From Microbacterium luteum (lineage in GTDB: Bacteria; Actinomycetota; Actinomycetes; Actinomycetales; Microbacteriaceae): a DNA stretch of 64,000 nt. The notes beneath the pieces are model-generated. The model was not told the origin of the DNA. It saw only the letters and a program-made list of their open reading frames with translations, and ran no database searches. The first letter of the stretch is position 1. Every line of letters begins with the position of its first letter. The stretch spans positions 124,001-188,000 of the forward strand of contig NZ_CP063814.1 in the NCBI RefSeq assembly GCF_015277875.1, in the 5' to 3' direction. The position numbers were made by a program, and so were the translations under genes. Below are positions 1-40,794 of this stretch, piece by piece.

Positions 1-438
1 CACCGCCAGCCACGGGCTGAGCAGCCACCGTCCCGTCCGGCTGTGCAGCCCGGCATGCGCGGCACGCAGCACCAGGAGCCCGGGGCCGCGGTGCGGGGTG
101 GCGCGCAGCAGCAGGGTGCCCGGAGAGCCGAGGACCAGCAGCGGCGGGATCGCCATCATCAGGGTGAGCTGCTGGAACATGAACACCGAGAACAGCGCGT
201 ACCCGTAGTTCTCCACAGCAAGACCGGTGACAGCGGCGAGGGCGACGCAACCGAGTAAGAAGCTGATGGTCCGCCACATCGGCCATCCGCGCCCACGCAC
301 CCACATGCGGATCGCGCCGGCCAGGTAGGCGACTGCGAGCAGCCCCGCCAGGATCGGTAGCAGGGGGGCGGGAAGGGGGGCCGGGGTGAGGAACACGCCC
401 AGGGTCGGCGGGGCATCCGGGATCCACACGGTTGTCAC
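1..438 (-). CDS. CtaG/caa3-type cytochrome c oxidase assembly protein, N-terminal part (truncated by window edge)
   Basis: A GTG start at 436-438 overlaps the resB stop by four bases (GTGA). The reading frame runs open to position 1, giving 146 codons of an incomplete protein. The visible part is hydrophobic with several membrane segments. It contains the segment FMFQQLTLMMAIPPLLVLGS, which matches the core of the caa3_CtaG family (normally an HM..H..L....PPLLVLG stretch). Family members are polytopic membrane proteins linked to copper delivery or cytochrome oxidase assembly and are often fused to or found beside CopD. Here it is the last visible gene of the metal/redox operon. The family assignment is good; the exact role on a mobile element is unknown. 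Confidence 0.7.
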   Translation of the reverse strand, partial: MTTVWIPDAPPTLGVFLTPAPLPAPLLPILAGLLAVAYLAGAIRMWVRGRGWPMWRTISFLLGCVALAAVTGLAVENYGYALFSVFMFQQLTLMMAIPPLLVLGSPGTLLLRATPHRGPGLLVLRAAHAGLHSRTGRWLLSPWLAV

Positions 439-2129
439 GGCGTGTCCTTCGCGGCCTGCTCTATGCCGAGGGACTGCGCGTGGCGGGTCGCGAGTTCGTC
501 GACGGCGCGCGCGAGGGTGGGGTCTTCGCCCCGGGCGAGGCCGGCGTATTCGACGTGCACGCCGTCCGGGGTGGTGCGGGCTTTCACCCAGAGCCGCCGG
601 CGGGGGACGAACAGGCCGGCGAACAGGCCGAGGGTGGCGAGCACGGAGAACGCGAGCACCCAGCCGCTGCTGGGGTCGCGTTGGATCTGCAGCGACGCGA
701 ACCGCTTCACCGGCTGCTCTGTCGTGACCTCCTCCCAGGTGATGGTGCCCCATCCGTTCGGCAGGTCGACGGTGGCGCCCGGGGTGAGCTCGAGGGAGTC
801 GGCTGTGGTGTCGCCGCCGGTGTGTTGGGTGAGCCCGTCGACCTCGAGCGTGTACACCGACCTCGGGGTGCCGTCGTCGATGCCGAGATCGCCGCTGAAC
901 ACGTTGAGGGTCATCACCGGGTTGACCACGTCGGGGTAGACGGAGGTGAACGCGCCGGAGGGCAGCACCCCCTGGGTGGGGTAGAAGAACCCGACCAGCC
1001 CGACCTGTTCGGGCAGCCCGTCCGGGATCTTGATGATCCCCAGCGAGGTCATGTTGGAGTCCTGCGGCAGGAACGGCTGCGACTCGCTGTACACGACCTG
1101 GCCGGCGGCGTCGCGGATCGTGAGGGTGGGGGCGTAGCCGTTGCCGAGCAGGTAGATTCGGTCGCCTTCGACGGTGATCGGGTAGTTCACGATCACACTC
1201 TCAGCCCGGTCGTCCTGGCCGGGCTGTCGGATAGAGACGTCGGCGGAGAAGTCGCCGGCCTGGCCTGCGCCGGGGGTGCCGGGCAGCCGGTAGGAGACCT
1301 GGAAGTCGTCGAGGGTGAGCGAGTAGGGCGCAAGACCGGTCCCGTCGACGAATCGGCCGGGGTTGAACGAGGAGTAGTCGCTGAGCGCGTTCACGAATGT
1401 GGTGCCCTCCACCACCACTCGCTGCCCCGTGTACGCGAACGACCCGCCGATCGCCACCGACATCAGCACGCCGATAAGGGCGACGTGGAAGATCAGGTTG
1501 CCGGTCTCCCGCAGGTAGCCGCGCTCGGCAGACACCGACGCAGCGCTGCGCGCGTCGTAGCGTTCCACCCGGTACCCGGACTTACGTAGCTGCTCTGCCG
1601 CGACGGCAACCGCGTGCGCGGCCGCATCGGGCTGCGCGGCCCCTACCGGGATGGTGAGCTCCCGGTACTCGGACAGGCGTGATAGCCGCGCCGGGGTGCG
1701 CGGCGGGCGAGTGCGGAGCGCCTTGTAGTGGTGCTTCGCGCGTGGAATCACGCAGCCGATCAGGGAGGTGAACAGCAGCAGGTAGATCGCGGAGAACCAC
1801 GGCGACAGGTACACGTCGAACAGCCCGACCGCGTCCGCCAGCGGGAACACGTCGGGGTTGTCGCGTTCCCATTGGATGACCCCGTTGGGGTCGGCGCTGC
1901 GTTGCGGGAACAGCGACCCGGGCACGGCGGCGATGGCGAGGAACAGGAGCAGCACCAGCGCGGTGCGCATGCTGGTCAGTTGCCGCCACGCCCACCGCAG
2001 CCAGCCCGTGACACCGAGGGTCGGCTGGGTGATCTCGGTTGCGGTATCGACATCGGTGTCGGCGTGGTCGCCGGGCCGCAGCGGGTCGGCTGTGACGTCG
2101 GTGCCGGTGTCAGAGCGGGAGGGGAACAT
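435..2129 (-). CDS. resB: ResB-like cytochrome c biogenesis protein
   Basis: This 564-residue membrane protein has the ResB/Ccs1 layout: N-terminal membrane segments (one begins MRTALVLLLFLAIAA, about residue 55), a third near residue 215 (LIFHVALIGVLMSVAIGGSF), a large extracytoplasmic domain rich in beta structure, and a final membrane segment before a basic tail (LFVPRRRLWVKA, about residue 510). In system II cytochrome c maturation ResB works with ResC/CcsA to carry haem outward and attach it to apocytochromes. No ResC gene is visible, although it could lie left of the window. The start ATG overlaps the end of ccdA by 20 bases and the stop overlaps the next gene, so translation is probably coupled. 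Confidence 0.85.
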   Translation of the reverse strand: MFPSRSDTGTDVTADPLRPGDHADTDVDTATEITQPTLGVTGWLRWAWRQLTSMRTALVLLLFLAIAAVPGSLFPQRSADPNGVIQWERDNPDVFPLADAVGLFDVYLSPWFSAIYLLLFTSLIGCVIPRAKHHYKALRTRPPRTPARLSRLSEYRELTIPVGAAQPDAAAHAVAVAAEQLRKSGYRVERYDARSAASVSAERGYLRETGNLIFHVALIGVLMSVAIGGSFAYTGQRVVVEGTTFVNALSDYSSFNPGRFVDGTGLAPYSLTLDDFQVSYRLPGTPGAGQAGDFSADVSIRQPGQDDRAESVIVNYPITVEGDRIYLLGNGYAPTLTIRDAAGQVVYSESQPFLPQDSNMTSLGIIKIPDGLPEQVGLVGFFYPTQGVLPSGAFTSVYPDVVNPVMTLNVFSGDLGIDDGTPRSVYTLEVDGLTQHTGGDTTADSLELTPGATVDLPNGWGTITWEEVTTEQPVKRFASLQIQRDPSSGWVLAFSVLATLGLFAGLFVPRRRLWVKARTTPDGVHVEYAGLARGEDPTLARAVDELATRHAQSLGIEQAAKDTP

Positions 2130-2877
2130 TGATCACCACCTGTTGCAGCTGCGACATCAGCACCGTCCACAGTCCCGTTACCATCAGCAGGCCGAGGGCG
2201 ATGAGCATGGCCCCGCCGAGGATGTTCAGGGCGCGGATGTGGCGGCGCAGGAACGTGACCGAGCGGGACGCCCAGCCCCACCCGGCCGCGAGGATCAGGA
2301 ACGGGATGCCCAGGCCCAGCGAGTAGGCGAGACCGAGCAGGCCGGCGCGGGCGGGGTCGCCGAGGTTCCACGACATCGAGATGATCGCTGCGAGCGTCGG
2401 GCCGATGCATGGGGTCCAGCCGACGCCGAGCGCGAACCCCAAGAGCGGCGCGCCGATCAGCCCGGCCCTGCCCTGGGCGCGGGGGCGGAGGGTGCGTTGC
2501 GCGATGCCGAAGAAGCCGAGGAATACCAGCCCGAGGGCGATGATGATGATCCCGAACACCCGGGTGAGGATGCCTGCGTATTGCAGCAGCAGGTATCCGA
2601 AGGTGCCGCCAAGGATCGTGACAGCGACGAACACCACCGTGAACCCGGCGATGAACAAACTCACTCCCAGCAGCAGCCGGGCGCGCTCCGCCGTCACCGT
2701 GCGCCCGCTGTTCACCGTGGCGGGTGTGGTCGTCGTGGTGGTGCTGCCGAGGTAGCCGAGGTAGCCGGGCACCAGTGGCAGCACGCACGGGGACACGAAG
2801 GAGACCAGCCCGGCGAGGATCGCGACCGGGATCGCGACCCACAGGGCGCCGTCGACGATGACCGCTCCCGGGTTCAC
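2110..2877 (-). CDS. ccdA: CcdA-type thiol-disulfide transmembrane transporter
   Basis: The GTG start (2877) overlaps the stop of the upstream thioredoxin-like gene as GTGA and gives a 255-residue protein with about six membrane segments. The two redox cysteines of the DsbD/CcdA core are visible in SFVSPCVLPLVPG (about residue 28) and GVGWTPCIGP (about residue 140). CcdA passes electrons from cytoplasmic thioredoxin to extracytoplasmic thiol proteins such as ResA/TlpA, keeping apocytochrome or metal-site cysteines reduced. Its place between a TlpA-like lipoprotein and ResB matches the usual system II gene set. A longer upstream reading would run into the neighbouring gene and was not used. 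Confidence 0.88.
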   Translation of the reverse strand: MNPGAVIVDGALWVAIPVAILAGLVSFVSPCVLPLVPGYLGYLGSTTTTTTPATVNSGRTVTAERARLLLGVSLFIAGFTVVFVAVTILGGTFGYLLLQYAGILTRVFGIIIIALGLVFLGFFGIAQRTLRPRAQGRAGLIGAPLLGFALGVGWTPCIGPTLAAIISMSWNLGDPARAGLLGLAYSLGLGIPFLILAAGWGWASRSVTFLRRHIRALNILGGAMLIALGLLMVTGLWTVLMSQLQQVVINVPLPL

Positions 2878-3476
2878 GAGGTGTCCTCGGCGAGGGTGTC
2901 GGCGACCAGGGTGGACAGGATCGATGCGCTGGCCAGCTGCCCGATGATCCGCGCGGCGACCCGCCCTTCCTGGTCGATGACCAGGGTGGTGGGGGTGGCT
3001 TGGATTGGGGTGACTTGCGCGAATGCGAGTTTCACTTTGCCGTCGTTCACGTCGATCACGCTCGGGTAGGTGACGTTGTTGTCGCGGGCGAACGACAGTG
3101 CGGTCGCGGGCTGGTCGTAGGTGTTGACCCCGAGGAACGCGACATCTTGGTCCTGGTAGTCCTGCCAGACCTGCTCGAGCAGTGGCGCTTCGACGATGCA
3201 TGGCCCGCAGGCGGCGTACCAGAAGTTCACTACCAGCACCCCGTCGCGATAGTCGTCGCTGGAGACCGCCTCGCCGGTCTCGGTGACGCCCTCGAAGACC
3301 ACCGGCTCTCCACGGTCGGTCTCCGGGATCTCGACGATCTGGAAATCGCCGGCGATGTAGCCCTTCTCGTTTCCGTCCCGGTACTGCTGCGCGAGCGAGT
3401 CGCCAGACGTGCAGCCGGCGAGCAGCCCGACGACAAGAAGGGCCGAGGCGGTGGCGATCAGAGCGCGGCGGTTCAT
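2874..3476 (-). CDS. TlpA/ResA-like thioredoxin-fold lipoprotein
   Basis: This 200-residue protein starts at ATG 3476, overlapping the previous stop as ATGA. It opens with a lipoprotein signal ending LLAGC, so the mature protein is probably lipid-anchored at Cys-23 or so. The thioredoxin active site is the CGPC in FWYAACGPCIVEAP near residue 95, and a cis-proline region follows (QATPTTLVID). TlpA/ResA proteins receive electrons from CcdA and reduce apocytochrome c or copper-site cysteines outside the membrane. The presence of a lipobox beside an lspA gene two positions upstream suggests that the operon brings its own lipoprotein processing enzyme. Confidence 0.85.
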   Translation of the reverse strand: MNRRALIATASALLVVGLLAGCTSGDSLAQQYRDGNEKGYIAGDFQIVEIPETDRGEPVVFEGVTETGEAVSSDDYRDGVLVVNFWYAACGPCIVEAPLLEQVWQDYQDQDVAFLGVNTYDQPATALSFARDNNVTYPSVIDVNDGKVKLAFAQVTPIQATPTTLVIDQEGRVAARIIGQLASASILSTLVADTLAEDTS

Positions 3477-3808
3477 GGGCGCTTGACCTTGATCAGTGCG
3501 CCGGCTACCAGGAACACGACCGCGGCGACCGGTTGCGCGGCCGTCCACACCGGGCCGGTGAACGGAAACGGGAACACCGGGTTCCAAATCACTAGGATCG
3601 CCGCGAACACCGGCACCCACCACCATTGCCGCGCCTGGATGGCGAACCAGCTCACAATCACCGCGAAGATCGCGGCAACGAACAGCACCAGCGTGAACCA
3701 GTCCCCACCCATCAACACCGGTGCAAGGAACAACACCGCCGCCGCAAGCAGACCCGGCGCGAACGCATTGCGCTGATACACGGACGGGGTGCGCTGCTTC
3801 GCCATCAT
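3473..3808 (-). CDS. small four-helix membrane protein of unknown function
   Basis: This 111-residue protein is nearly all membrane: about four hydrophobic segments separated by short loops, with a run of aromatic residues (QARQWWWVPVF) in the middle and a basic C-terminus. It resembles the small actinobacterial membrane proteins grouped as DUF6804, but that is from memory and not firm. Two start codons in tandem (ATGATG) overlap the lspA stop, and its own stop overlaps the start of the thioredoxin-like gene, so it is part of the operon. No catalytic residues can be recognised. A role as an accessory subunit of the redox or lipoprotein machinery is only inferred from position. Confidence 0.7.
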   Translation of the reverse strand: MMAKQRTPSVYQRNAFAPGLLAAAVLFLAPVLMGGDWFTLVLFVAAIFAVIVSWFAIQARQWWWVPVFAAILVIWNPVFPFPFTGPVWTAAQPVAAVVFLVAGALIKVKRP

Positions 3809-4356
3809 GACCCGCTCACCGCCGACCCCGCCGCCGGCAACGGTCCACCGGCCACCCCAGCATCCGCTGTGTTCGTGCGGGCGCGCCGGTGTCGGATCCA
3901 GATGTTCAGGCCGAGCACGATCACGCCAGCGCCGAGGGCGACATCAGCGAGGTTCCCAATGAAGAGGTTCCCGTAGGCGAGGAAGTCGGTGACGTGCCCG
4001 ACCCCGAAGCCAGGCGGGGAGAACAGCCGGTCGATCACGTTCCCGACCGCGCCGCCCAGGATCAGCCCGATCCCCACCGCCCACCATCCCGTCCGTGCCC
4101 GCGCCGCGGCGACGATCAACACCACCACGGCGCCGACGCCGAGGAGAGTGAGCAGCCCTGTGAACCCGGCGCCGAGAGAGAGGATCGCGCCCGGGTTGAA
4201 CGCGAGCTGCAGCCCGAGCAGATCACCCAGCAGCGGGATGCGCTCGTCCTGGCGCAACCCGTCGAGTGCGGCCGCTTTCGTCGCCTGGTCGATTAGGACC
4301 ACCACGCCGGCGGCCAGGCAGGCGATCGCGAATCGTCGGGACTGCTCACGATTCAT
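3805..4356 (-). CDS. lspA: signal peptidase II (prolipoprotein signal peptidase)
   Basis: This 183-residue membrane protein has four hydrophobic segments and the two catalytic aspartates of LspA, in GGAVGNVIDRL and FIGNLADVALG (roughly residues 110 and 140). The conserved N-terminal DQATK motif is also present. LspA cleaves signal peptides of diacylglyceryl-modified prolipoproteins. The start MNREQ at 4356 overlaps the upstream copC-like gene by 11 bases; an upstream ATG at 4386 would lengthen the overlap. Because a chromosome normally already has lspA, this copy on mobile DNA is an accessory one. It probably serves lipoproteins of the same operon, such as the TlpA-like protein. Confidence 0.87.
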   Translation of the reverse strand: MNREQSRRFAIACLAAGVVVLIDQATKAAALDGLRQDERIPLLGDLLGLQLAFNPGAILSLGAGFTGLLTLLGVGAVVVLIVAAARARTGWWAVGIGLILGGAVGNVIDRLFSPPGFGVGHVTDFLAYGNLFIGNLADVALGAGVIVLGLNIWIRHRRARTNTADAGVAGGPLPAAGSAVSGS

Positions 4357-5083
4357 CGGCGGGACCGTTCTTCCCCGTGTCGCCATTTCCGCTGCCCTTG
4401 CCGGACGCGGCAGCTGCGGCTGCTCTGTCGCGGCGGCGGCGCTCTCGGGCCACCATGAGTACGACGATCAGGGCACCGCCGAGCACGATCACACCGCTTA
4501 CCACCGCGAGGACGGGGAGGAACTCCCCACCTCCGGAGGGGCCGTTGTGCATCTCTCCGGAGGTCGTGGTCGGGGTCGTCGCAGACGGTTCGGGTGTCTG
4601 TTCCTGGGTCGCTTCGGGGGTGGGGGTACTGGTGGGCACCGTGACGGCTTCGACGGTGTACTGGTACTCGTTGCTGATCGGGTGCCCGTCGCTGGAGACG
4701 ACCCGCCACCGCACCGTGAACACCCCGGCCTGACCTGGCTGGACAGCCTGGGTGACGGTGGTCCCGTCGATGACCGGTTCCCCGGACGCGAGGTTCTGCC
4801 CGTCTGGAGCGACCACCTCGATGATCACCGCGCTGAAATCGGTGAGGATCTCCCCGCTGAACGTCAGCGAAATCTCCTCCGGAATCACGCCGATCGTGGA
4901 ACCGGCTTCCGGGGAGGACGAGACGATCTCATCGTGCGCGGCTGCGGGAGATGCGACGGCGAACAGCAGACCGGCGGTCAGCAGCAGCGCCGCCAGGCCG
5001 GGCAGAAAGAAGGAGCGTCGACGGATCCCGGGGGTGGGCGATCGGCGCCGGGATGCGCGGTCGGCAACGGGTATGGAGGTCAT
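4346..5083 (-). CDS. copC: CopC-domain copper-binding protein with C-terminal membrane anchor
   Basis: The start at 5083 follows a clear ribosome site (GAAAGGAC). The protein has 245 residues: a signal peptide ending ASPAAA, a mature N-terminus beginning His-Asp, and a CopC beta-sandwich (about residues 50-150) with the family's closing SSDGHPISNEYQYTV stretch. A Thr/Pro/Glu-rich linker follows, then one membrane helix (about 195-215) and a basic tail. In CopC proteins the N-terminal histidine and the His of the DGHP motif bind Cu(II). The protein would sit on the outer face of the membrane. It overlaps lspA by 11 bases and is part of the same operon. Confidence 0.82.
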   Translation of the reverse strand: MTSIPVADRASRRRSPTPGIRRRSFFLPGLAALLLTAGLLFAVASPAAAHDEIVSSSPEAGSTIGVIPEEISLTFSGEILTDFSAVIIEVVAPDGQNLASGEPVIDGTTVTQAVQPGQAGVFTVRWRVVSSDGHPISNEYQYTVEAVTVPTSTPTPEATQEQTPEPSATTPTTTSGEMHNGPSGGGEFLPVLAVVSGVIVLGGALIVVLMVARERRRRDRAAAAAASGKGSGNGDTGKNGPADES

Positions 5084-5096
5084 GGTCTCGGTCCTT

Positions 5097-6119
5097 TCAG
5101 GGCCGGTTGATGATGTGCTGGGCGATCGTCGTCGCGTCTCTCGAAACGCCTGCGATGGTGTCGGAGCCGCGGCCGCCGTAGTGCGGCATTCCCGCCACGA
5201 ACAACCCGGGAAGCCCGGTCGTGGTGCGCCGGGGCCGCTCGGTGCGGGCCGTTTCCGGCAGCCAGTGGTCACCCGGGTCGTATCCGGTGGCGAGGATTAC
5301 CGACCCCGGCGAGATTTGAGCACCGTCAGCGAAGGTCACCGTGGCGCCATCCGCGGTCGTCACCGCGGGTGCGATCGTGACCCCCGCACGCCGCAGCTGT
5401 TCATAGCTGTCGCCGAACACCGGCTCGGGGCGTCTCTCGCGCGACAGCAAGGACATGCTTTCGCCCGCCGCGGTGGGGTAGCTCATCGCGGGCCGGTGGC
5501 GCCGTGGAGTGCGGGTGGACAGGGTGACGGCGTGCGATGCGGACAGTTCGCGAGCCAGTTGCACACCACTGTTCCCGCCGCCGACGATGAGTACGTCCCC
5601 GGCAGGGATCTGCCCCGGGTATAGGTACTCGCTGCTGTGCAGCACGGCACCCGGCACGCGGAGCCAACTCGCCCACTCCGGCAGCCGAGGATGCGCGGCC
5701 GCGGCGGTCGCGCACACCACATTGCGGGTCTGCACCTCACCCGTCGTCGTCGATAGCAGCAGCGTCGAACCGTTCCCACGATGCTCCACCCCGGTAGCTC
5801 GGACGTCCCAGACGGTCTCCACGCCAAGTCCGGCTTCCACATACGTGAGGTAGTCGACCATCTCGTCCGCTCGTGGATGTCGGCGCTGATCGCCCATCAG
5901 TCGGCGCGGAGACAACGCGCTATGCCGGGCGTCGCTGAGCAGCTCCATCGAATGCCACCGCGACGCCCAGGAACGCTGCCCCGGTGCGGCCGCGTCGATC
6001 ACCACGAACTCGTGCTGCGGCCGGAGCCCTTCCGAGCTCAACGCCGCCGCGACCGCCAGCCCGGCCTGCCCGGCGCCGACGATGATCACCCGTCGATGTG
6101 ACAATCCGGCCCGCATCAC
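5097..6119 (-). CDS. FAD/NAD(P)-binding flavin monooxygenase-like oxidoreductase
   Basis: This 340-residue protein has two dinucleotide-binding motifs. GAGQAG near residue 15 binds FAD, and GGGNSG near residue 175 binds NAD(P). An ATG motif (VILATGYDPG) near residue 290 and a typical ending follow. This is the layout of the CzcO/flavin-containing monooxygenase group of two-nucleotide-domain flavoproteins. The substrate cannot be told from sequence. It lies between the copC-like and dsbA-like genes with one-base spacing to the latter (a GTGATG junction lets it start at 6119 or 6116). A role in thiol or metal redox chemistry is inferred from the neighbours only. Confidence 0.75.
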   Translation of the reverse strand: MMRAGLSHRRVIIVGAGQAGLAVAAALSSEGLRPQHEFVVIDAAAPGQRSWASRWHSMELLSDARHSALSPRRLMGDQRRHPRADEMVDYLTYVEAGLGVETVWDVRATGVEHRGNGSTLLLSTTTGEVQTRNVVCATAAAAHPRLPEWASWLRVPGAVLHSSEYLYPGQIPAGDVLIVGGGNSGVQLARELSASHAVTLSTRTPRRHRPAMSYPTAAGESMSLLSRERRPEPVFGDSYEQLRRAGVTIAPAVTTADGATVTFADGAQISPGSVILATGYDPGDHWLPETARTERPRRTTTGLPGLFVAGMPHYGGRGSDTIAGVSRDATTIAQHIINRP

Positions 6120-6784
6120 TGGCCACCGCTCACCGCGGCCTGGATGAGGTTCTCAAGGTCGTCCCACTCCTGCAACTCCGCGAGCTCACCGTTGACGAAA
6201 AACGTCGGTGTGCTGCTCACCCCGAGAGCGCGACCCTCTTCAAAGTCCAGATTGACACGTGCCGTCGTTGACGGGTCCGCTACAGCGGCGTCGTAGGCGG
6301 CCATGTCCAAGCCGAGCTCCTCCGCGAAGCCGCGGAACAAGTCGGCGCGAGACTCCTGCGCCTCACCCCACTCCGCCTGTGTCTCGAACAACCGGTGATA
6401 CATGTCTTCAAACCGGTCCTGCTGCGCGGCCGCTTCCGCGGCGATCGCGGCGTTCTTCGAGTTGAAATGACCCGGGAGAGGGAAATAGCGGATCACATAC
6501 GTGATTTCCCCGGCGAACTGCTCCCGCAGATCCTCCACGATCGGGTAGAACGACCCACATGCTTCGCACTCGAAATCCAGGAACTCAACCACCGTGACCG
6601 CGCCCTCACCTCCGTCATCGAGGACGTGCGAGTTCTGCCGCACCAGCTGCGCCGACGAGGGGCTGTCCCCGGACGAGGGCGGAGCGGTTTGGCTCTGATT
6701 GATAAGGACATAGATCAACGCGGCCATAGCCAGCACCACCACAACGGCAATGGTGACGAGCGTCGCCTTTACAGGGGTTTTCAT
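6116..6784 (-). CDS. DsbA-family thiol:disulfide protein, membrane-anchored
   Basis: A start at 6784, seven bases after a GGAG ribosome site, gives 222 residues. One N-terminal membrane helix (ATLVTIAVVVVLAMAALIYV) is followed by a DsbA/thioredoxin-4 domain. The active site is CEAC in LDFECEACGSF near residue 80, and the cis-proline loop is VSSTPTFFVNG near residue 190. Such proteins form or shuffle disulfides in exported proteins. The gene is next to last at the promoter-proximal end of the operon, 90 bases downstream of the small membrane gene. Together with CcdA and the TlpA-like protein it gives the operon both an oxidising and a reducing arm. Confidence 0.85.
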   Translation of the reverse strand: MKTPVKATLVTIAVVVVLAMAALIYVLINQSQTAPPSSGDSPSSAQLVRQNSHVLDDGGEGAVTVVEFLDFECEACGSFYPIVEDLREQFAGEITYVIRYFPLPGHFNSKNAAIAAEAAAQQDRFEDMYHRLFETQAEWGEAQESRADLFRGFAEELGLDMAAYDAAVADPSTTARVNLDFEEGRALGVSSTPTFFVNGELAELQEWDDLENLIQAAVSGGQ

Positions 6785-6874
6785 CGGGTACTCCAAACCA
6801 GGACACGGCACAGGACAGAACCCGGGCACACAGCCCGGGACGAAGCACCACCCCACGGGGTGGCGTGCCAGATA

Positions 6875-7297
6875 TCAGGTTCGGGAAAGACCCAGTTGCG
6901 TCAACGAGAACACGATCGGATGCGCGCGCGCTGCCGAAGCGGGAATGAGCGATGGCATCCGTGGCGCTGCACCGAGAACGGGCGGCATCCGCCGCCGCCA
7001 CAGTCTCCGCAACACCACCATGAACGTGAGGCCGCACAGCACACCAAACACACACAACGCCGCACCGACGAGCGCGTTCGACCCCGACCAGGAGCCACCA
7101 GCGACGGCCTCGTGCTCTGCTGTGGTATCCGCTACGGGCTCCACGTGCGGGTCCATCAGCCCGGACACCATGAGAGGAATAGGCGCCGACCCATCCAGCT
7201 CCGTATGGGCCGTTGCCGCCAGACCGAGCATCAGCAGCAACGCCAAACCGACGCTAGTAATGAGCCTCATTATCAACAACTGCTCATTCAGCGTCAT
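6875..7297 (-). CDS. small histidine-containing membrane protein of unknown function
   Basis: A start at 7297 gives 140 residues; a second start at 7270 would remove nine. There is an N-terminal signal-like helix (LALLLMLGLAATAH), a short extracytoplasmic region with several His and Asp/Glu residues, and a second membrane helix (VGAALCVFGVLCGLTFMVVL) before a basic tail. The arrangement recalls the small actinobacterial DUF6153-type proteins found near copper genes, but this is a tentative likeness. It is the first gene of the leftward redox/metal operon, so the operon promoter should lie in 7298-7578. Confidence 0.55.
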   Translation of the reverse strand: MTLNEQLLIMRLITSVGLALLLMLGLAATAHTELDGSAPIPLMVSGLMDPHVEPVADTTAEHEAVAGGSWSGSNALVGAALCVFGVLCGLTFMVVLRRLWRRRMPPVLGAAPRMPSLIPASAARAHPIVFSLTQLGLSRT

Positions 7298-7451
7298 GGA
7301 TTGTGAGTTCCGGGCCGAAGAGACCATCTCCAACAGCTTACCGTGCGCACTCAAACGCACTCAGAACGCCGAAGGCGGCGCCGGCGAGGAGGGTGCATGG
7401 GTGTCCCGGGTGCTGTGAGTGCTGACGAGGAATGTCGGGAACGCGGTGAGA

Positions 7452-7466
7452 TGACACTAGATGTCA
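7452..7466. promoter_or_regulatory. possible operator palindrome upstream of the redox/metal operon
   Basis: The sequence TGACACTAGATGTCA is a perfect inverted repeat of TGACA around a 5-base centre. It lies about 155 bases upstream of the first gene of the leftward operon, in a 281-base gap with no convincing gene. It could bind a metal- or redox-sensing regulator, but no regulator gene is adjacent and short palindromes also arise by chance. Confidence 0.25.
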
Positions 7467-7578
7467 CGTAGATCGCGATGTTTCGCGTGGTCCGGGTCGA
7501 CTTTGTCGTGACACTTTCCCGGCGTCGGCGGCTGTCCCACCGACTCAGTCGTTTGTTGCGCACCAGAGCGCCCGCGCG

Positions 7579-8340: not shown

Positions 8341-8505
8341 GTCGCCACACTAGCGACGAGTGGGTTGCGACGGGATGCGCGCTCGGCAGGCGACAAGAGC
8401 ATCACGCGGACCTGAGTCGGCTATCTCGTGGCGCTTGTGTGGGACCGAGACACGTCGCCGTGGCTGCCGGGGTGATATCGGGCGTTCGCCTGGGAGGATG
8501 TCACC

Positions 8506-9896: not shown

Positions 9897-9979
9897 CGTC
9901 TTCGGTGCGCTGAGTCGATGTGTCCCCCGGCCGAGGTCGCCGACGGTAGTCCGAGGGGGTGGTCGTCGTCGCCATCCGT

Positions 9980-11071: not shown

Positions 11072-11082
11072 AGTGCTCCTCC

Positions 11083-11379
11083 TCAGTGCTGTTCGACGGC
11101 TTCGATGACGGCCGTGGGGGTACCGCCGGCATCCGGGTAGGAAACGCGCAGCTGATGCTCGTCGTCGATCCGCAGTGTCGCGCCGCGCACCCCTCGCGTT
11201 GTCGAAGGCCGCACCCGCAGGCTCATCAGTGCCTCCAGATCGCCCGGCCCGGTCGCGGCGCCGATCATCTGAAGGACTCGCCGGTAGCGGCGCAGGAGCG
11301 ATGCGGACCAACCGCCCGCGGTGGACGCGGTCTCATACGCGAGGCGTTCCAACTCCCCGTCCCCGAACTGCAGTTGCAA
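11083..11379 (-). CDS. HigB/RelE-family toxin
   Basis: This 98-residue basic protein has the family landmarks: an N-terminal F.D..LERLA motif, central helices with a basic LLRRYRRVLQMI stretch, a DLEAL..L segment, and a closing beta strand ending AVIEAVEQH that parallels the usual EIVDYH. HigB toxins are ribosome-dependent mRNA interferases. The start appears to be TTG at 11379, because an in-frame stop lies five codons further upstream and no ATG or GTG precedes the domain. A weak non-ATG start would keep toxin synthesis below antitoxin synthesis. It is divergent from the ubiquitin-like operon. Confidence 0.8.
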   Translation of the reverse strand: MQLQFGDGELERLAYETASTAGGWSASLLRRYRRVLQMIGAATGPGDLEALMSLRVRPSTTRGVRGATLRIDDEHQLRVSYPDAGGTPTAVIEAVEQH

Positions 11380-11440
11380 CGCGCATTCCGCTCTTCACCC
11401 CTGAACTGATACCGCAACGATAACCGACGTTCGTGTGGGT

Positions 11441-11498: not shown

Positions 11499-11541
11499 TA
11501 GGTGATGACAAGATATGAATCTACAAACGAAGGAGTGTCGC

Positions 11542-30025: not shown

Positions 30026-30035
30026 GGGGCTGCGT

Positions 30036-32600: not shown

Positions 32601-32603
32601 GCC

Positions 32604-34607
32604 TCAGCCCTTCCCATTGATCTCGAAGGAGCGCAAGTAGTCGGCATACAGCCTCGTCGTCTCGAGCCGCAGGTCGGGCGGCAGGTAGGCCACGGCTTCC
32701 TGAAACTCACTCTCCGAGTCCGTAACCACGAACACGTGCCGCAGGTCGCGATCATGCACCGCAATCAGTTCAGCGAACGCCCGCGCGTGGGCAGGTGCGA
32801 ACAACACTCCGTAGACCGCACCGCTCGGGAGCGCCCAGAGCGCGTCTCCCCTTCGCCGCACAACCGGTCCGAACCCGCCAGCCTTCAGCCACAACAGCGG
32901 TGCTACCGCGTCGAACCGGCGCCCGAGCGCAACGAGGTTCTCGTCCTCGTACGTGAGCTTGAAGAACGCGACGTTCTCGTCGTGTCCGTCTGAGAAGACT
33001 GAGCCGTCGGCTCGGACGCCCGATACAACAGTCTCGATGCGAGGTCGGGTGACCTTGGCCGAGACGCCCTGCGCCTCCCACTCGGGGTCACCGGGGTGGT
33101 GGCCGCCTGCTCGCAGACCAGCGGTTGCCTTCGAGGAGAGTTCATTGTTCGTGACGACAATTGCCTGCCGCCGGCCGCCATCCTGCGCATTCAGACGCAT
33201 GACGGCTTCTACGGTCGAACCCGTGCCGGCGAAGAAGTCGAGCACCACAGCCTCGGTCGATCGCTGGGTGGTGATGGAGATCCACCGCGCGAGAACGTCT
33301 ACATCCTTCGGAAAGGGGAACTCCTTCGAGCCGAGCACGGAGCTCAAGTGCTGACTTGCTGAGCGCCGATCTTTGTAGAAGCTCGGCATCACGCTCCGCA
33401 TCGACATATCGCGGAGCGGTGTTTTCAGTCGAGGGCGCACTCCGAACAAGACGCGGTTTGTGGCGATCATCTCGTCCATCAACTCGCGCTTGAAGCGCCA
33501 CCCGTTCTCTGGGGGCTCGTAGACGACGCCCGTCGCAGGATCCGTGATCGAGTAGCGAAGGTTGGGCCTTGGCAAGCTGTTGCTCAAGTCACCAACCTTG
33601 ATGGCGGTTCCGTCGCTGTCGACCTTGACGTTGTCGCCCAGCCCGGGATCGTACTTTGACTTGTTCCTGTTCCACCACGACGACAGCAGGCGCGACGCAG
33701 CTTCGGAGTCGTGCTCGGACTTCTCCCACGCTTCAGCAGCGGCGTCGAGAACGTCCTGTAGGCCGTCCTTTTCCACTTTCCAGCGCACGCCGGAATCGGT
33801 GAGAGCCGACATGTCGCGCGCGTATACGAGCATGTAGTCGATTCCGCCCGCGTGGAACCGTGAAAGTGACGACCCTCCTCCTTGCCACACGATGTTCCCG
33901 ACGAAGTTCTGCTCGCCAAATACCTGATCGAGGAGCATCCGCAGCCGATGGTGCTCGTCGTCTCCGATCGCGACGATGATCACCCCGGTGTCCGTCAATA
34001 GACGCTTTGCGTGAATGAGTCGCCGCTCCATGAACGACAGCCATTTCGAGTGCCTGTACGCGTCAGTGCTCGCAACGAACCGGTCGTTGTAGATCCAGTC
34101 ATCCGCGCCGGTGTTGTAGGGCGGGTCAATGTAGATCAGATCGACCTTGCTCTCGTGGGTGTAGAGCAGCGTCTCCAGCGCATAGTAGTTCTCGCCCTCG
34201 ATCACGACGTGTGTCGGCTTGTCGCCGCCCCGACTGATCTCGCCGAGCGCTTCCAGGCCGGGGTAGATCGGCACGCTGAAGTCCTTGACAACGACGAGTT
34301 CGTCGTGTGGGTGCGTTGCGGGTTCGCTTCCTTCGATCGTCTGCTTCGCCGCGTCCACTGCAATGACCGACGCGGCACCGCCCCGGGCTGAGAGCACGAC
34401 GTAGTTCTGCTTGTCGGCATCGGAGCGGAGTCGTACGACATCGCCGCGCCGCGGCCGGGTTCCGGGAACCTCAAGGTCCTCCGGAAGGTGGCGCTGAAAG
34501 ACGAGGCCGAAATCCTTATGCTCGACTAGCTTGGCCACCTCTTCGGCGATCTGCGCCCGTAGGTGGGGATCGGGGATTCGCTCGATGAGGTTGTCGACGT
34601 GGGCCAC
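32604..34607 (-). CDS. mod: type III adenine-specific DNA methyltransferase Mod subunit
   Basis: The GTG start gives 667 residues. The catalytic DPPY motif (VDLIYIDPPYNTGADDW) lies near residue 160, before the SAM-binding FAGTG motif (VVLDFFAGTGSTVEAVMRL) near residue 457. This order is the beta class typical of type III Mod proteins. The region between the motifs should contain the target recognition domain, so the recognition site cannot be read. Mod methylates one strand of an asymmetric site and is needed for Res cutting. It is preceded by a small XRE gene in the same direction. Confidence 0.9.
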   Translation of the reverse strand: MAHVDNLIERIPDPHLRAQIAEEVAKLVEHKDFGLVFQRHLPEDLEVPGTRPRRGDVVRLRSDADKQNYVVLSARGGAASVIAVDAAKQTIEGSEPATHPHDELVVVKDFSVPIYPGLEALGEISRGGDKPTHVVIEGENYYALETLLYTHESKVDLIYIDPPYNTGADDWIYNDRFVASTDAYRHSKWLSFMERRLIHAKRLLTDTGVIIVAIGDDEHHRLRMLLDQVFGEQNFVGNIVWQGGGSSLSRFHAGGIDYMLVYARDMSALTDSGVRWKVEKDGLQDVLDAAAEAWEKSEHDSEAASRLLSSWWNRNKSKYDPGLGDNVKVDSDGTAIKVGDLSNSLPRPNLRYSITDPATGVVYEPPENGWRFKRELMDEMIATNRVLFGVRPRLKTPLRDMSMRSVMPSFYKDRRSASQHLSSVLGSKEFPFPKDVDVLARWISITTQRSTEAVVLDFFAGTGSTVEAVMRLNAQDGGRRQAIVVTNNELSSKATAGLRAGGHHPGDPEWEAQGVSAKVTRPRIETVVSGVRADGSVFSDGHDENVAFFKLTYEDENLVALGRRFDAVAPLLWLKAGGFGPVVRRRGDALWALPSGAVYGVLFAPAHARAFAELIAVHDRDLRHVFVVTDSESEFQEAVAYLPPDLRLETTRLYADYLRSFEINGKG

Positions 34608-34648
34608 GAGTTACACCGTACCGGCGCCACTGGTGTGAGCCTGGAGAG

Positions 34649-34960: not shown

Positions 34961-34992
34961 TAAGGCCTAATCGGTATGGCATTCTCTCGAAC

Positions 34993-35436: not shown

Positions 35437-36701
35437 GGGCACCCGCGTCCCGTCGTCGCTCGTACTCTGATCGGCGCCGCCCACCGATGCCCGCTCCGAC
35501 ACCGCCAGTTGATGCGGCGGCCCGAATCAGCGCTGACATGGTCGGGGTCGCCGGCATTGCGGCCGCGCGTCTTGTCCCATTCCTTGGCGAGGTCGGGGTG
35601 CGTAGTTCCCAGATCGGTATGTCCGGGCCATGCTCGCTGGCCAGCGCAGTAGGGGCACCCGCTCTTGGCGAGGCCTCGCGTGGAGGGGCTCGTCTCCCAG
35701 AGGTGTCCCTTGCCGCAGATCCACCAGGCGTTCTTGGACATGTCCGGCGCGTCCCAGGGGTTGCGTGTGCGGTCGTTCAGACCCCAGGCCCATTCTGCGA
35801 CGGCGTTCGGATTGCGCCGAATCCAGAGCGGGTAGGGGGCGGTGGCATCGATGATCGCGGCAACATTCACGACATCGAGCGATGGGTGCATCGTGGCGAA
35901 ACGGGTGGGCCGCGTAGCGCGACGGATTGGTCGCATCCACAGCAAGATCCGCTCGACGAGAACCTCTGCCGGAACGCCAATGGGCGGTAGATCCTGGGCG
36001 ATCGCGTCACGAACACGATCCGTTGGCATCGTCCGCCAGCGTTGGATCGTGCTCGTATTGGAGAGGACCTCCAGAACTGCGACGACGACGGGGTACTGCG
36101 CCGCGCGTCCGAGGATTTCGCGGTCGTCGGCGCTGGGGCGCGGCGCCTCTGTCGGGGCCTGTGAGGTGGTCAGCGCCGCGTTGTCGCGCACCATCTCCCA
36201 TACCCTGGCGTGCAGCTCGGGATCGACGCGGTCCGCGGCAACTATCCGCCGGAACTTGCGTTCGGCGTGTGCTTGGGTTCGATCAAACGGAAGCACTGGT
36301 TGCGACTCAGGCATGGTGCCCGGTCCCACCCACACCATCTGGCCGGGATGCCGAAGGCACCAGTTCTCGCGGTCGTGAGGGATCTGCTCCACGCGCTCAC
36401 CGGCGGCGCACAGCCGGCAGAGGAATCGCTTCGGATATCTTCCCTCGGGGTTCGGCTGGGCGAGTTCCATCAGCCTGGCGCAGTGCCCGGCGGGGCGCCC
36501 GGCTCCGGCCTCCACGATCGCTAGGGCCGCGTCGTCGCCGACCCAGACGCGGCCGACATTCGGCTGCGTCGAGGTGGTCAGCCCCCTTTCAGCGGCGGAG
36601 AACGGGATCCCCGCCGCTGCGCACTGGCGTCGCAAGTAGGAGCGGGGTGACTCAAGCCGGTGCCACTTCGGGCGGACCGGCCAGGCGAGATCACCAGTCA
36701 T
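35403..36701 (-). CDS. tniQ: TniQ/TnsD-like target selector with C-terminal zinc-ribbon repeats
   Basis: The 432-residue protein has an N-terminal TniQ domain: RLESPRSYLRRQCAAAG near residue 15, then cysteine pairs (FLCRLCAAGE and NWCLRHPGQMVWV near residues 95-125). The C-terminal third carries two repeated zinc ribbons of the W.C..GH.W......R....GCPYC.G type (about 330-360 and 395-425). TniQ/TnsD proteins choose the target and recruit TnsC. The zinc-ribbon tail probably contributes DNA binding. The start overlaps the tnsC stop by four bases. The second repeat ends at the protein's C-terminus, so a further repeat may have been lost. Confidence 0.78.
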   Translation of the reverse strand: MTGDLAWPVRPKWHRLESPRSYLRRQCAAAGIPFSAAERGLTTSTQPNVGRVWVGDDAALAIVEAGAGRPAGHCARLMELAQPNPEGRYPKRFLCRLCAAGERVEQIPHDRENWCLRHPGQMVWVGPGTMPESQPVLPFDRTQAHAERKFRRIVAADRVDPELHARVWEMVRDNAALTTSQAPTEAPRPSADDREILGRAAQYPVVVAVLEVLSNTSTIQRWRTMPTDRVRDAIAQDLPPIGVPAEVLVERILLWMRPIRRATRPTRFATMHPSLDVVNVAAIIDATAPYPLWIRRNPNAVAEWAWGLNDRTRNPWDAPDMSKNAWWICGKGHLWETSPSTRGLAKSGCPYCAGQRAWPGHTDLGTTHPDLAKEWDKTRGRNAGDPDHVSADSGRRINWRCRSGHRWAAPIRVRATTGRGCPYCAGTRVWRE

Positions 36702-37762
36702 GCGGCTTCGTCGAGGTCGTCTCCGCGGAGATCGTCGAGAGTGATCTTGTGTCGGACCGGTGTCGTGTACCGCAGGTCATCGAGCACCGCGTACAGACGC
36801 TGCCGGGTGACTCGTTCGTTCCGGCGGGCGGTGTCGTTCAGGATCGCGGCTACGAGTCGCTCGACGATCATCGCCAGGACGGCGAGTTGACCATCCGCGG
36901 CCTTGTGCAGTACTTCCGCGTTACGGGTGAGGAGCCCGGGTACGTGACCGCACAGGGGGAGATTGCGGTCGAAGACGGCCACCCAGCGGTGCCACAGCAC
37001 CCGGCCCTCCTCCTGCTTCTGATCAACCTTACGTAGCTCCACCATGTCACACCGCATTCTGACCTGTAGGCCTTCGCGGCTGCCGAAGGCCTTCCCACTG
37101 CCCAGGTCAATACCGACAAGAAGCACGGTGGCGGGCGCTTCGTTCTGCAGCGCCTTGATGATGCTGGAGGGTTCGCTTCCACCCAGGCGGTGGGCCTCGT
37201 CTACGACGACGAGCTTGGTGCGGTGGGCATGCAGCATGTCGACCGCCATCTTGCGCAGTCTGTCGGTATTCGACCGGGTGGGGATCGAGACGGTGGGGGC
37301 GAGGAACTCGATGATCTGGATGAGTAGTGCCTTGCCCGTGGAGTGGTCGGTCATCTCCGTCCACACCACCGGGACCTCGCCGCGGTCGACGTACTCAGGA
37401 TGGCGGAAGGCGTGTGACTGCTCGGTTGAGCGAGCGAGCAGTAGTGCCAGTTCGGTCTTGCCGTAGAACATCGGCGCGGAGATCATCATGCCTCGGCGAG
37501 AGTTCTTCCGTCGCGGGTTCGACGCGATGAGATTCGCCAGAATTCGGGCGCCGATGTCCTGTTCTGGCGTCGGCACTCGCAGGGTGAGCTGGAGGAAGTC
37601 GTCGCGGGCCTGATCGTACGCCTCCTGCTCCGACAAAGGCAGGCTGGAGTAGTCGGCAAACGTCAGCGCCGGAGGCGGCGGCGGAAGCGCCGTGAACGCC
37701 TCACGCAGGCCCGGCAGCGTCGTCTTACGCGCCTGATGAAGCACAAGCGGTTCGATGATCAC
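36698..37762 (-). CDS. tnsC: TnsC/TniB-like AAA+ ATPase transposition regulator
   Basis: This 354-residue protein has a Walker A region in SAPMFYGKTELALLLA near residue 100 and Walker B LVVVDEAHRLGG near residue 187, followed by sensor-like TVLLVGIDLG. The first Walker A glycine is replaced by Ala-Pro, a mild departure from GxxxxGK. TnsC forms ATP-bound filaments on target DNA and links the target selector to the transposase. It lies two bases after tnsB and overlaps tniQ. Confidence 0.83.
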   Translation of the reverse strand: MIIEPLVLHQARKTTLPGLREAFTALPPPPPALTFADYSSLPLSEQEAYDQARDDFLQLTLRVPTPEQDIGARILANLIASNPRRKNSRRGMMISAPMFYGKTELALLLARSTEQSHAFRHPEYVDRGEVPVVWTEMTDHSTGKALLIQIIEFLAPTVSIPTRSNTDRLRKMAVDMLHAHRTKLVVVDEAHRLGGSEPSSIIKALQNEAPATVLLVGIDLGSGKAFGSREGLQVRMRCDMVELRKVDQKQEEGRVLWHRWVAVFDRNLPLCGHVPGLLTRNAEVLHKAADGQLAVLAMIVERLVAAILNDTARRNERVTRQRLYAVLDDLRYTTPVRHKITLDDLRGDDLDEAA

Positions 37763-37764
37763 CT

Positions 37765-39807
37765 TCAGAACTCCTTCACCGTGACGATGTCGTAATCGGG
37801 CGAGTCCCAGTCGATGTCACCCACATCAGCAGGGTCAGACCATCTGTCCAGGTCGATCGGCTCCGGCTCTGTCGCGCCGGCATCGGAGGCGAACGGCGCT
37901 TCCGCCGCGGCGGCTCTGCCGCGGAGGTGGCGGTTGCGGGCGCGCTTGTCGGTGCGCTCCCGCCGCTCGATCTCGTCCAGGAGCTCCACTCTTCGCGGGG
38001 TCTCGCCAGACTCTCCCGTGCCGAACTGCTCGACCAGCTTTACGGCCGCCTCGGCAGCCATCCACGCCACCTTGTCGTCGAGCGCTGTGTCCCAGCACTC
38101 GATCCATTCGTCAGTCTCAGGGTGGCGCACCCAGACGGCGTTGGAGTTGTAGGGGTCATAGCTGATGTCGAACTTGCGCGCCCGGGTAGAACCAGCGGCT
38201 GCACCGGTGAGCGATCGGTCTCGCAGTTCCGCGAGCAGCGGCGAGTCGTACGTGCGGTTGTCGAGCTCGATGCCCTCGCTGCTGATCACGCGCGGCTTCG
38301 TTGGCAGCAGGGCGAAGAAGTCCTCTGCGCGGAACGGCAACTGCACGCCAGGGCCGACCTCGAACAGGGCTGCGTACATCTGGTTCGGCGTCCACTCCCG
38401 TCCCGGGAAGAGGGGCGACTTCAACCCGCCGTGCTGCGTGTTCAGGTACACCGTGGTGATCCACGTCTCGAAGGCGAGCCGCACCGAATCCAGTGTGAGC
38501 GTCGGCTTGTCCCGCTTGCCTCTGTTCGCGACCGAGCTGCCAGTGGCGCCGGCCAGCCAGGTCGCGAAGCTCGTGGACGTGGTTCCGAAGTTTCGCTCGA
38601 CGTGCGGCTTCACAGTGGGGGTGTTCGGCGGAGCAAGCACCAGCGTGATGCCGAAGGCGCGACAGGCGGCCTCGAACGTTGCAGAGCGGAAGTCGGCGCC
38701 GCCGTCGATGGTGATCGCGTGAGGGAAGATCCACGGCACTGCCAGCGAGTCGTCGTCGAGGTAGGGGTTGACCTGCTTCATCAGCGCGACCGGAAGCGTT
38801 GCCGATCCCGACAATACGGCCGCCGCCGATCCCGGGATGGCCTTGCGCCCGACGATCGCGCGAGCCAGCAGCAGCGCGTGGTCGAAGCCGTTCGGCGAGT
38901 TGGCATGAATCGCCCAGGCCAGAGGGACCCTACTTGCGACGTCGAACAGCACGGTGGCAGTGGGGCGATACGTGTTGCCCTTGTCATCCCACACCTGCAC
39001 ATCCAGCAACGTCGAGTCGATCTCACAGACCGCGCCAAGTCGGAAGGCGTTGCCGGAGAAGTGCTGACGATCCGGACTGTTCGCGGCGGTGCGCCTCGTG
39101 GTCGCTTTGTCGAAGCTGTATCGACCCGCGTCGCGCTCGTTGATGTACCCCTGCAGTGTCGTGTTCTTGATGTCGCAGACTGGGTCGTCCGGGTACATGC
39201 TCTCCAGTGTCCGACGTACCAGCAACGCGCAATGCCGGCGAGTGGTGGTCGGCATGTCCCGTCGGTCGTCGAGGGCTCGGTCGATAATGGCAATCAGTCG
39301 TGGGTCCGCCTTTGCGATCGTCAGCCGCTTCTTGGCCTTGCGGTGCATGCGCGCATCGAGCCCTGCAATTCCGTCCGAGAGGTACGCGTCCCACAGGTTG
39401 TAGAGCGTGCGACGTGACCGGGCCAAGGACGTGCCCGCAAGCTCGCCAACCTTTGATGCGATCCGCTGCTCTTGAGTCGTTGTCCCGGGATCGTACGGGG
39501 TGCGCGAGCCCGTTGCGGTCGGCTGCATCGGTATCCCGCGGAAGGTTTCGAGCAGGTGCTTCTCCATGTCAAGTACGTCGACCGGCCAGTCACCGCCGGT
39601 GGGCCTCAACGAGATATCCGACGCCCGACGAGCTGTGCCTGCATGCGCGAGCAACTCAGGAACTGACACGACCAGCCAGTCGTCGACGGTCCCCTCGCGG
39701 CGTAGCTTTGCTTCCGTGCCGCGACGCACCCCCTCCCACACCCATGGTTCCCCGTCGATCTCGACTGCGTCGCCGAGGCGCAGCCTGTACTCCTCACGCA
39801 CCAACAC
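37765..39807 (-). CDS. tnsB: TnsB/TniA-like DDE transposase
   Basis: This 680-residue protein has N-terminal DNA-binding domains (helix-turn-helix near residues 120-150: SLARSRRTLYNLWDAYLSDG) and an rve-type catalytic core. The three acidic residues are D in CEIDSTLLDV near 262, D in TIDGGADF near 365 and E in PHVERNFG near 403. A Mu-type C-terminal beta-barrel follows. TnsB binds the repeated sites in the transposon ends and makes the 3' cuts and strand transfer. Its start overlaps the end of tnsA by 14 bases. Confidence 0.88.
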   Translation of the reverse strand: MLVREEYRLRLGDAVEIDGEPWVWEGVRRGTEAKLRREGTVDDWLVVSVPELLAHAGTARRASDISLRPTGGDWPVDVLDMEKHLLETFRGIPMQPTATGSRTPYDPGTTTQEQRIASKVGELAGTSLARSRRTLYNLWDAYLSDGIAGLDARMHRKAKKRLTIAKADPRLIAIIDRALDDRRDMPTTTRRHCALLVRRTLESMYPDDPVCDIKNTTLQGYINERDAGRYSFDKATTRRTAANSPDRQHFSGNAFRLGAVCEIDSTLLDVQVWDDKGNTYRPTATVLFDVASRVPLAWAIHANSPNGFDHALLLARAIVGRKAIPGSAAAVLSGSATLPVALMKQVNPYLDDDSLAVPWIFPHAITIDGGADFRSATFEAACRAFGITLVLAPPNTPTVKPHVERNFGTTSTSFATWLAGATGSSVANRGKRDKPTLTLDSVRLAFETWITTVYLNTQHGGLKSPLFPGREWTPNQMYAALFEVGPGVQLPFRAEDFFALLPTKPRVISSEGIELDNRTYDSPLLAELRDRSLTGAAAGSTRARKFDISYDPYNSNAVWVRHPETDEWIECWDTALDDKVAWMAAEAAVKLVEQFGTGESGETPRRVELLDEIERRERTDKRARNRHLRGRAAAAEAPFASDAGATEPEPIDLDRWSDPADVGDIDWDSPDYDIVTVKEF

Positions 39808-40588
39808 TCGTTCCTTCCGGGATGTGTTCCGACGTCATGTACACGGTGTCGCTACTGAACACCGCCCCGAGATCGAGGCAAAGGCGACGGCGCCACGCGA
39901 GGTTGTCGACCCACGCCGCGGCGAGCGGCGGGCACTCCGGAGACGCGATCTCGCACAACTCCCGTCGCGTCCGCCCGTCGCGTGCGGCATCGAGGATCAG
40001 CGCCTCGACTCCCGGCGCTGGTGTGCAGCGTTCATGGCGTGACGCGGACAAGCAATCGAGGTTCCGCGTCGCAAGCGGGTCGTGACCGGTGAGCACGCGG
40101 TAGTGCCAGCCGAGCGTGTCGCAGACCTTCGCGGTCTCATCGAATTGGAGACGCGCTTTGAGCTTGAGCTGTTCCTCCGGACGGACGTCGAGCAGTCCGT
40201 AGCTTCCGTCTGTGAACTGGGCGAGGAAGTCGGGAACATGCGAATAGCCCGCAAGTCGTGAACCGCGCCCGAACGCGAGTGCCATCGGCTGCGACCACAG
40301 ACGCTCCACCTGGCCGCCGTAGTCAAGCCACAGCACCTCCCAGCGTTCCTCCTGAGACTCGCACCAAACATGACTACGCGTCCGTTGCCAGAAGTACATC
40401 GAGTTCGTGAAGCGATGCCGCACACCCTTCGACGTGCGCACCCGCATCGGATCGATCGACGCCCAGTCTCGTTGGCCGACCTCTCGGCTGACAGGCGAAT
40501 GGTCCTGGCGTACGCGGGAGCCGCCGGGGAGGGAGTCGATCGAGCGCGGCACCCAATGCAGTTCAGTGTGGGGAGAACGACGTCGCAT
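39794..40588 (-). CDS. tnsA: TnsA-like endonuclease of a Tn7-like element
   Basis: A start at 40588 gives 264 residues. The core matches the TnsA N-terminal nuclease: VWCESQEERWEVLWLDY near residue 75, SQPMALAF, YSHVPDFLAQF and YGLLDVRPEEQLK near residue 130. The acidic residues there correspond to the TnsA catalytic set. In Tn7 TnsA cuts the 5' strands so that the element moves by cut-and-paste with TnsB. Presence of TnsA separates this element from Tn5053-like TniA/TniB transposons, which lack it. The gene lies about 200 bases from the right end of the element. Confidence 0.8.
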   Translation of the reverse strand: MRRRSPHTELHWVPRSIDSLPGGSRVRQDHSPVSREVGQRDWASIDPMRVRTSKGVRHRFTNSMYFWQRTRSHVWCESQEERWEVLWLDYGGQVERLWSQPMALAFGRGSRLAGYSHVPDFLAQFTDGSYGLLDVRPEEQLKLKARLQFDETAKVCDTLGWHYRVLTGHDPLATRNLDCLSASRHERCTPAPGVEALILDAARDGRTRRELCEIASPECPPLAAAWVDNLAWRRRLCLDLGAVFSSDTVYMTSEHIPEGTSVGA

Positions 40589-40717
40589 AGTCAACTGCTT
40601 CGCTGCATCGACTGGCTGCACCTCGGATCCCCCTCCCTGCGAAGTGAGACGCTCCGCAGCATCTGCTCCAGATGATGCGCCGACTCGACCCGCCCGGGCC
40701 TCTTCGCTTCGGCGTGT

Positions 40718-40794
40718 CGTTGCATCTCGTGCAACGGGAAAATCCACGAGTGCAACGTAAAGCCCGAAAATGCAACGGCAACGCGTTCCCGACA
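40718..40794. repeat. Tn7-like right end: TnsB-type binding repeats and terminus
   Basis: TGCAACG occurs at 40730, 40751 and 40771, spaced 21 and 20 bases apart, about two helical turns. This is the expected layout of transposase sites in a Tn7-type end. A palindrome, GTTGCA-N5-TGCAAC (40719-40735), includes the innermost site. The outermost sequence read leftward starts TGTCGGGAACGCG, giving the TG...CA terminus common to this class. The final base is placed at 40794 on that basis and because host coding sequence resumes at 40795. Confidence 0.65.

Follow-up and report, generated by a model that had tools for sequence, protein, structure and literature searches.

A Tn7-like element inserted in arsR of Microbacterium luteum is probably a composite of two stacked family members

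Results

The window analysed here, a 64,000-nucleotide stretch of the Microbacterium luteum genome (C1:124001-188000; the 3.52-Mb source genome is one contig), covers the right two thirds of a Tn7-like element that measures 60,355 bp from its outer left end (LE) to its right end (RE) and interrupts an arsR gene. The features of the window are listed in Table 1. The RE closes with the terminus TGTCGGGAAC at window position 40794 (C1:164794); the sequence GATCC lies outside it, and three evenly spaced TTGCA repeats lie inside, as the original prediction, made from the window sequence, had read them. The outer LE, TGTCGGTATCGCGGTGAGATGACAC, was located at C1:104440 (window -19560), 19.6 kb beyond the left edge of the window, directly after the second copy of GATCC that had been anticipated, and identical 5-bp sequences therefore flank both ends. 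The cargo of at least 40 kb that had been claimed is borne out by the measured length. A TGTCGG-type left terminus had also been foreseen and is present; the repeats within it are of the TGACAC type, not of the TGCAACG type expected. Counted over the whole window, TGCAACG is not enriched (seven occurrences versus 7.85 expected) and was rejected as a window-wide marker, while four of the seven form a non-random cluster at the element end. Repeat arrays at both ends, together with the 5-bp duplication, point to a Tn7-like transposon.

Table 1. Coordinates of the element features within the window and of the adjoining host genes
Feature	Position	Strand	Content or evidence
Copper/cytochrome-c-biogenesis island, right portion	1..7432		ResB, CcdA/DsbD-like, CopC, FAD oxidoreductase
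Inner LE of defence-carrying sub-element, TGTCGGGAACGCGGTGAGATGACAC...TTTGTCGTGACACTTTCC	7433..7519	+	Preceded by AGGAA
Helix-turn-helix (HTH)-ImmA/IrrE gene and 98-amino-acid (aa) neighbour, possible toxin-antitoxin	9980..11379	-	Gene 9980-11071 similar to PD-Lambda-2_B
Ubiquitin-like operon	11542..13648	+	88-aa Multi_ubiq-like protein (below cut-off), 119-aa open reading frame (ORF), ThiF/E1 protein
DUF3223 protein	13762..14469	+	PADLOC HamC2, 4.8e-85
Wadjet JetA-JetB-JetC-JetD	14602..21385	+	Pfam: DUF3375, DUF4194, SbcC-like, JetD
Mutator-family transposase	21597..22863	-	Matched in two separate ORFs
HTH-ImmA/IrrE gene and 363-aa neighbour without match	24594..26773	-	PADLOC RmrA, 1e-54
GmrSD_N/DUF262 protein	28187..30025	+	PADLOC HEC-05, 6.6e-204
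Type III restriction-modification Res and Mod	30036..34607	-	Pfam/PADLOC
Selector in tniQ/tnsD slot, 432 aa	35403..36701	-	Putative TniQ-like core, two DUF4379 zinc-finger repeats
tnsC	36698..37762	-	TniB
tnsB	37765..39801	-	Mu-transpos_C
tnsA	39794..40594	-	NCBIfam TnsA_like_Actin above cut-off; Pfam TnsA_N below cut-off
RE, three TTGCA repeats, terminus TGTCGGGAAC	40718..40794	-	End-repeat comparison
Target-site duplication GATCC	40795..40799; second copy C1:104435-104439	+	Match outside both ends
arsR 3' part	40795..40944	+	5' part C1:104201-104439, outside window
AHSA1/SRPBCC gene, host, downstream of arsR	40955..41935	+

The missing 5' half of arsR, for which the original prediction had called, was found beside the outer LE. 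The element thus splits the gene at about codon 80, leaving its first 239 bp on the left and the remainder after window position 40794; when the two parts are rejoined with one GATCC, an open frame of 127 codons results. Empty sites were also found: among 19 other genomes searched, 12 Microbacterium relatives gave a full-length match to arsR, and in every one of them the gene is unbroken. Upstream of the same arsR lies element A (C1:75972-104154), a tns-less family member with an LE, an RE and a copper island, which occupies the site 46 bp from the gene that is canonical for the family. Its outer 5 bp are unmatched (GCCTT/AATCG), and it was rejected as a partner of the outer LE at C1:104440 because the 5 bp differ.

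The ends were compared in relatives, whose genomes and loci carry G and L numbers; the survey set comprised 366 genomes of the genus. LEs have the layout TGTCGG...GAGATGACAC...TGTCAC...TTTGTCGTGACACTTTCC, and REs contain three TTGCA- or TGACA-type repeats spaced about 20 bp apart. The 5 bp outside the ends were identical in 13 of 17 LE/RE pairs (15 genomes), the exceptions being element A and the pairs of G187, G003 and G200; when ends were mispaired between genomes as a control, none of 268 combinations shared them. No LE was found in the 40 kb fetched for G106, G018 and G079. The LEs seen were all of the TGACA type, whereas REs occur in two versions, with TTGCA or TGACA repeats; one transposase may read both.

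Three LEs (C1:75972, 104440 and 131433) and two REs (104154 and 164794), all in the same orientation, are present in the M. luteum genome. The third LE, at window position 7433, is enclosed by the two GATCC copies and separates the copper/cytochrome-c island from the defence and tns genes. It is identical to the family terminus over 13 bp and across two TnsB-site blocks, and the first 954 bp from it are 87% identical to the LE of the element in G227. Since a second LE lies inside the element, the element is probably composite. The original prediction of a Tn7-like transposon with mixed cargo stands as to the transposon and is incomplete in taking it for a single element.

The left part of the composite (27 kb, from C1:104440, outside the window, to C1:131432) encodes P-type ATPases, Nramp, CopD-CtaG, CopC, ResB, CcsA, Lnt and two M23 peptidases, and by these predicted products is a copper, cytochrome-c and lipoprotein-processing island. 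The ResB/CcsA genes were considered as host flank and rejected, because they lie inward of the outer LE. Aligned in pieces totalling 18.3 kb, this island is 79% identical to a copper element without tns genes in G048, and over 18.2 kb it is 77% identical to element A; its order is inverted relative to both, so a rearrangement has occurred here. The right part (33 kb) runs from the inner LE through the defence genes and the tns genes to the RE. The best reading of the sequence would be a stack, with a copper-island element on the left and an autonomous defence-carrying element, with its own LE, on the right. This composite structure is preferred because G048 offers a parallel, in which a copper element on the left and a tns element on the right share one outer duplication.

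Arrays of such elements, or trains, were observed in relatives. Read towards arsR, the train in G048 consists of an RE stub, GGAAG, LE-RE, GGAAG, LE-RE, ACGAC, LE-RE, GGAAG and arsR, and that in G239 of an RE stub, AGTTC, LE-RE, ACAGC, LE-RE, AGTTC and arsR; the leftmost stubs retain terminal bases only. In both trains, the last two elements are enclosed by one outer duplication, and the spacer between them differs. Had the elements inserted one after another at the present site, the outer 5 bp would recur between them; the pairs therefore arose elsewhere and then moved together. G048 and G265 have the ACGAC junction in common, with 18,467 bp aligning at 99.97% identity to one side of it and 8,829 bp at 99.99% to the other; their arsR flanks are only 72% identical over 1,376 bp, and different 5 bp lie outside the RE (the outer LE of G265 is beyond the contig). 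Identity of at least 99.9% over 27.3 kb, with 72% identical flanks, in two species, combined with single outer duplications, leads us to conclude that composites move as units. Intact internal junctions, in which an RE and an LE are separated by 5 bp, are present in G048, G265 and G239. A scan of the survey set for such junctions revealed eight places in six of the 366 genomes, six of the eight with the full LE signature and three with RE repeats; it overlooked decayed junctions of G048 and G239, and a match in G364 was discarded as having no end signatures.

Searches with TnsB gave matches in 111 of the 366 genomes, and 25 genomes (M. luteum included) had long matches with about 58% identity or more. 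The RE was found 45-46 bp upstream of the arsR ATG in 14 of 16 elements placed via TnsB (11 of 13 on the main list and all three further loci); the exceptions were G265 (60 bp) and the element of the window, inside arsR. At locus L050 of M. murale, the distance is about 46 bp. At the family level, then, the spacing between the insertion and a conserved gene is fixed, as in Tn7-like transposons. The arsR ATG sits within the palindrome ACAACCAAATGGTTGT, which is also present in unoccupied arsR genes and therefore marks the gene, not an earlier insertion. A survey pattern joining an RE-like terminus to this palindrome, with only 44-48 bp permitted between the RE terminus and arsR, was matched in 36 of the 366 genomes, and the reversed-pattern control in none. 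Thirty matches were fetched; RE repeats were present in 21, and nine without them were left out of the count. A close TnsB is encoded in ten of these 21 genomes. Of the 11 that lack one, G248 and G273 retain both ends, flanked by matching duplications, but only a tnsA remnant. A shared sequence, ATCGACCGC, noticed by eye in the arsR 5' region and in the flank of the in-gene RE, has different spacing in the two places and was not used.

The predicted order tnsA-tnsB-tnsC-tniQ at the right edge was upheld by profiles for the first three genes, which encode a heteromeric TnsA and TnsB transposase with a TnsC ATPase, as in Tn7-like elements. The tniQ slot is filled by a 432-aa protein whose sole Pfam match is to DUF4379, with none to TniQ. 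Among the matches listed, Foldseek alone gave no TniQ match for this protein, the best being DUF4379 proteins of trypanosome mitoribosomes; structure comparison weakly suggests a TniQ-like core. Transposition would be carried out by TnsABC together with this putative selector. Comparison of the window protein with selectors P0018, P0021, P0027 and P0032 separates a 432-aa class with two fingers from longer classes, of 775 aa at most, in which finger motifs are more numerous; both kinds insert at an equal distance from arsR. A separate selector class as the cause of the in-gene insertion was rejected, since the 432-aa selector is also found in G276 and G350, whose elements occupy the canonical 45-46 bp site; selector length is therefore no explanation. 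A search for the selector at the order level (1e-40) gave two of 396 genomes, both Microbacterium. A clade of loci (L030-L037, L056 and L059) with about 60% TnsB identity has a 775-aa selector, with neither arsR nor a recognisable end beside tnsB. No cas family was found among the scanned proteins, which were only part of the ORFs, and a repeat array was not searched for.

The cargo of the right part largely agrees with what had been predicted, its functions being assigned from sequence comparison. Wadjet (jetA, jetB, jetC and jetD adjacent), the Mod and Res pair and the DUF262 protein were all recovered by profiles, as was the ThiF/E1 protein of the ubiquitin-like operon, with its Multi_ubiq match below cut-off. 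The proposed HigBA module is retained as to its HTH-ImmA/IrrE gene only, its 98-aa neighbour having no match in the profile scans. Family member G281 has the block made up of DUF262 and the type III restriction-modification genes (6.5 kb at 83.5% identity), and family member G290 has the RmrA-like block (4 kb at 90%). Three cargo ORFs (24012-24629, 24594-25685 and 27030-28058) lie beside known defence genes and have no Pfam or PADLOC match.

Discussion

We conclude, with a probability of about 0.8, that the element of the window is a 60,355-bp composite Tn7-like transposon of two stacked family members, which has lost its inner RE and has moved as a unit. Several observations weigh against this view or its extension to the family. 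No RE stub is recognisable before the inner LE, so that the junction is not intact, and the AGGAA that precedes it is unmatched. The insertion inside arsR departs from the canonical upstream site and hence from the fixed-distance rule of the family. In nine genomes with a TnsB of about 60% identity, neither such an RE nor the arsR palindrome was found in the available flank, which limits generality.

The first two observations also agree with nested insertion followed by deletion, in which an outer element entered arsR first, a second member inserted within it at window position 7433, and the inner RE was lost together with the tns genes of the outer element through recombination between the two similar tns regions, the whole never having moved as a composite. 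The inversion of the copper island, which attests to a rearrangement, speaks for such a history as well. We consider it unlikely, though deserving of serious weight, because G048 and G265 show the same order as a clean RE-ACGAC-LE composite, which in G048 is flanked as a unit. Capture of the copper island by a single Tn7-like element, through insertion sequence (IS) activity or recombination, with the inner LE a chance or decayed copy, would fit the IS30- and Mutator-type transposases within the cargo; it is improbable in view of the exact 13-bp match of that LE to the terminus, its two TnsB-site blocks and its likeness to the LE of G227. The GATCC duplication, the split arsR and the empty sites in 12 relatives leave hardly any likelihood for an ordinary chromosomal defence and metal island that has tns genes nearby and is immobile as a unit.

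If the composite interpretation is correct, the following mechanism may be proposed. The selector, with its TniQ-like core and DUF4379 finger array, would bind the arsR 5' region, and TnsC would bridge it to TnsA and TnsB assembled on the TGACA/TTGCA end repeats; the element would then be excised and reinserted at a set distance. Trains would be possible because the arsR region survives insertion and divergent family members could use the site again. Target immunity of Tn7-like elements is described in the portions of a review (PMC11406308) drawn on here; trains must evade it, presumably through divergence of their members. The outermost LE would pair with the terminal RE of a train, and everything between would move, so that cargo, including tns-less members such as the copper element, would accrete stepwise and spread. 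The left member of the window composite would have lost its own RE later, and the composite would have entered the arsR body, the canonical upstream site now holding element A. Whether the family as a whole builds islands by stacking at the arsR site, with outermost-end pairing yielding larger transposons and the DUF4379 array serving as a modular DNA reader, is a wider proposal for which we see evenly balanced odds.

The element resembles Tn7 and Tn7-like transposons in having tnsA, tnsB, tnsC and a selector beside the RE, terminal TGT...ACA, repeat arrays like transposase sites, a 5-bp duplication, a fixed distance from a conserved gene, and defence cargo that includes Wadjet. In the excerpted text of Benler 2021 (PMC8649781), defence cargo is described in Tn7-like elements, with Wadjet in 34 transposons, and median element sizes are 14-29 kb with a maximum of 140 kb; "very large", as originally claimed, is thus a fair description of the present element, which is not of record size. 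The target differs from that of Tn7 and Tn7-like transposons, being the 5' side of arsR in place of the 3' flank of glmS or of a tRNA, and, unlike known Tn7-like elements, composites here move as units. The same text describes a second, actinobacterial TnsB clade with no experimentally characterised member. The present element, a candidate member, shares with it the host phylum and a TnsA of NCBIfam TnsA_like_Actin. The selectors surveyed by Faure 2023 (PMC10293859), as far as the excerpted text goes, have HTH-rich C-terminal parts, unlike the DUF4379 fingers found here. The terms "arsR" and "DUF4379" are absent from the main text of that paper, and "arsR" from PMC8649781.

Adjacent Tn7-like insertions that produce extra ends are described in section 6 of PMC8649781. 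They are similar to the trains in that multiple LEs and REs are present at one locus; judged from that section, the trains stand apart by spacers of exactly 5 bp, by the recurrence of identical 5-bp sequences and by the single outer duplication of each composite. IS-flanked composite transposons are comparable in that outer ends of two elements mobilise intervening DNA, and different in that the members here belong to a site-specific Tn7-like family and are linked through their own ends. No published account of the arsR site, of a DUF4379 selector or of joint composite movement was found in the literature available without subscription.

The trains would provide a mechanism, readable from sequence, by which Tn7-like elements gain unrelated cargo such as metal handling and phage defence, and near-identical composites in two species amount to a natural experiment. 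For an uncharacterised actinobacterial group, the target site and the ends are now defined, and its putative selector has an unusual candidate DNA-reading domain; if the wider proposal holds, the DUF4379 array, with anything from two to several fingers, would read DNA in modular fashion, unlike the HTH-type tails of TnsD.

More distant relatives of the transposase were also encountered. In a plasmid search, TnsB relatives turned up in just two records, each about 34% identical, and the M. luteum genome itself encodes another, remote TnsB-like protein at C1:3473286-3474701 (26% identity).

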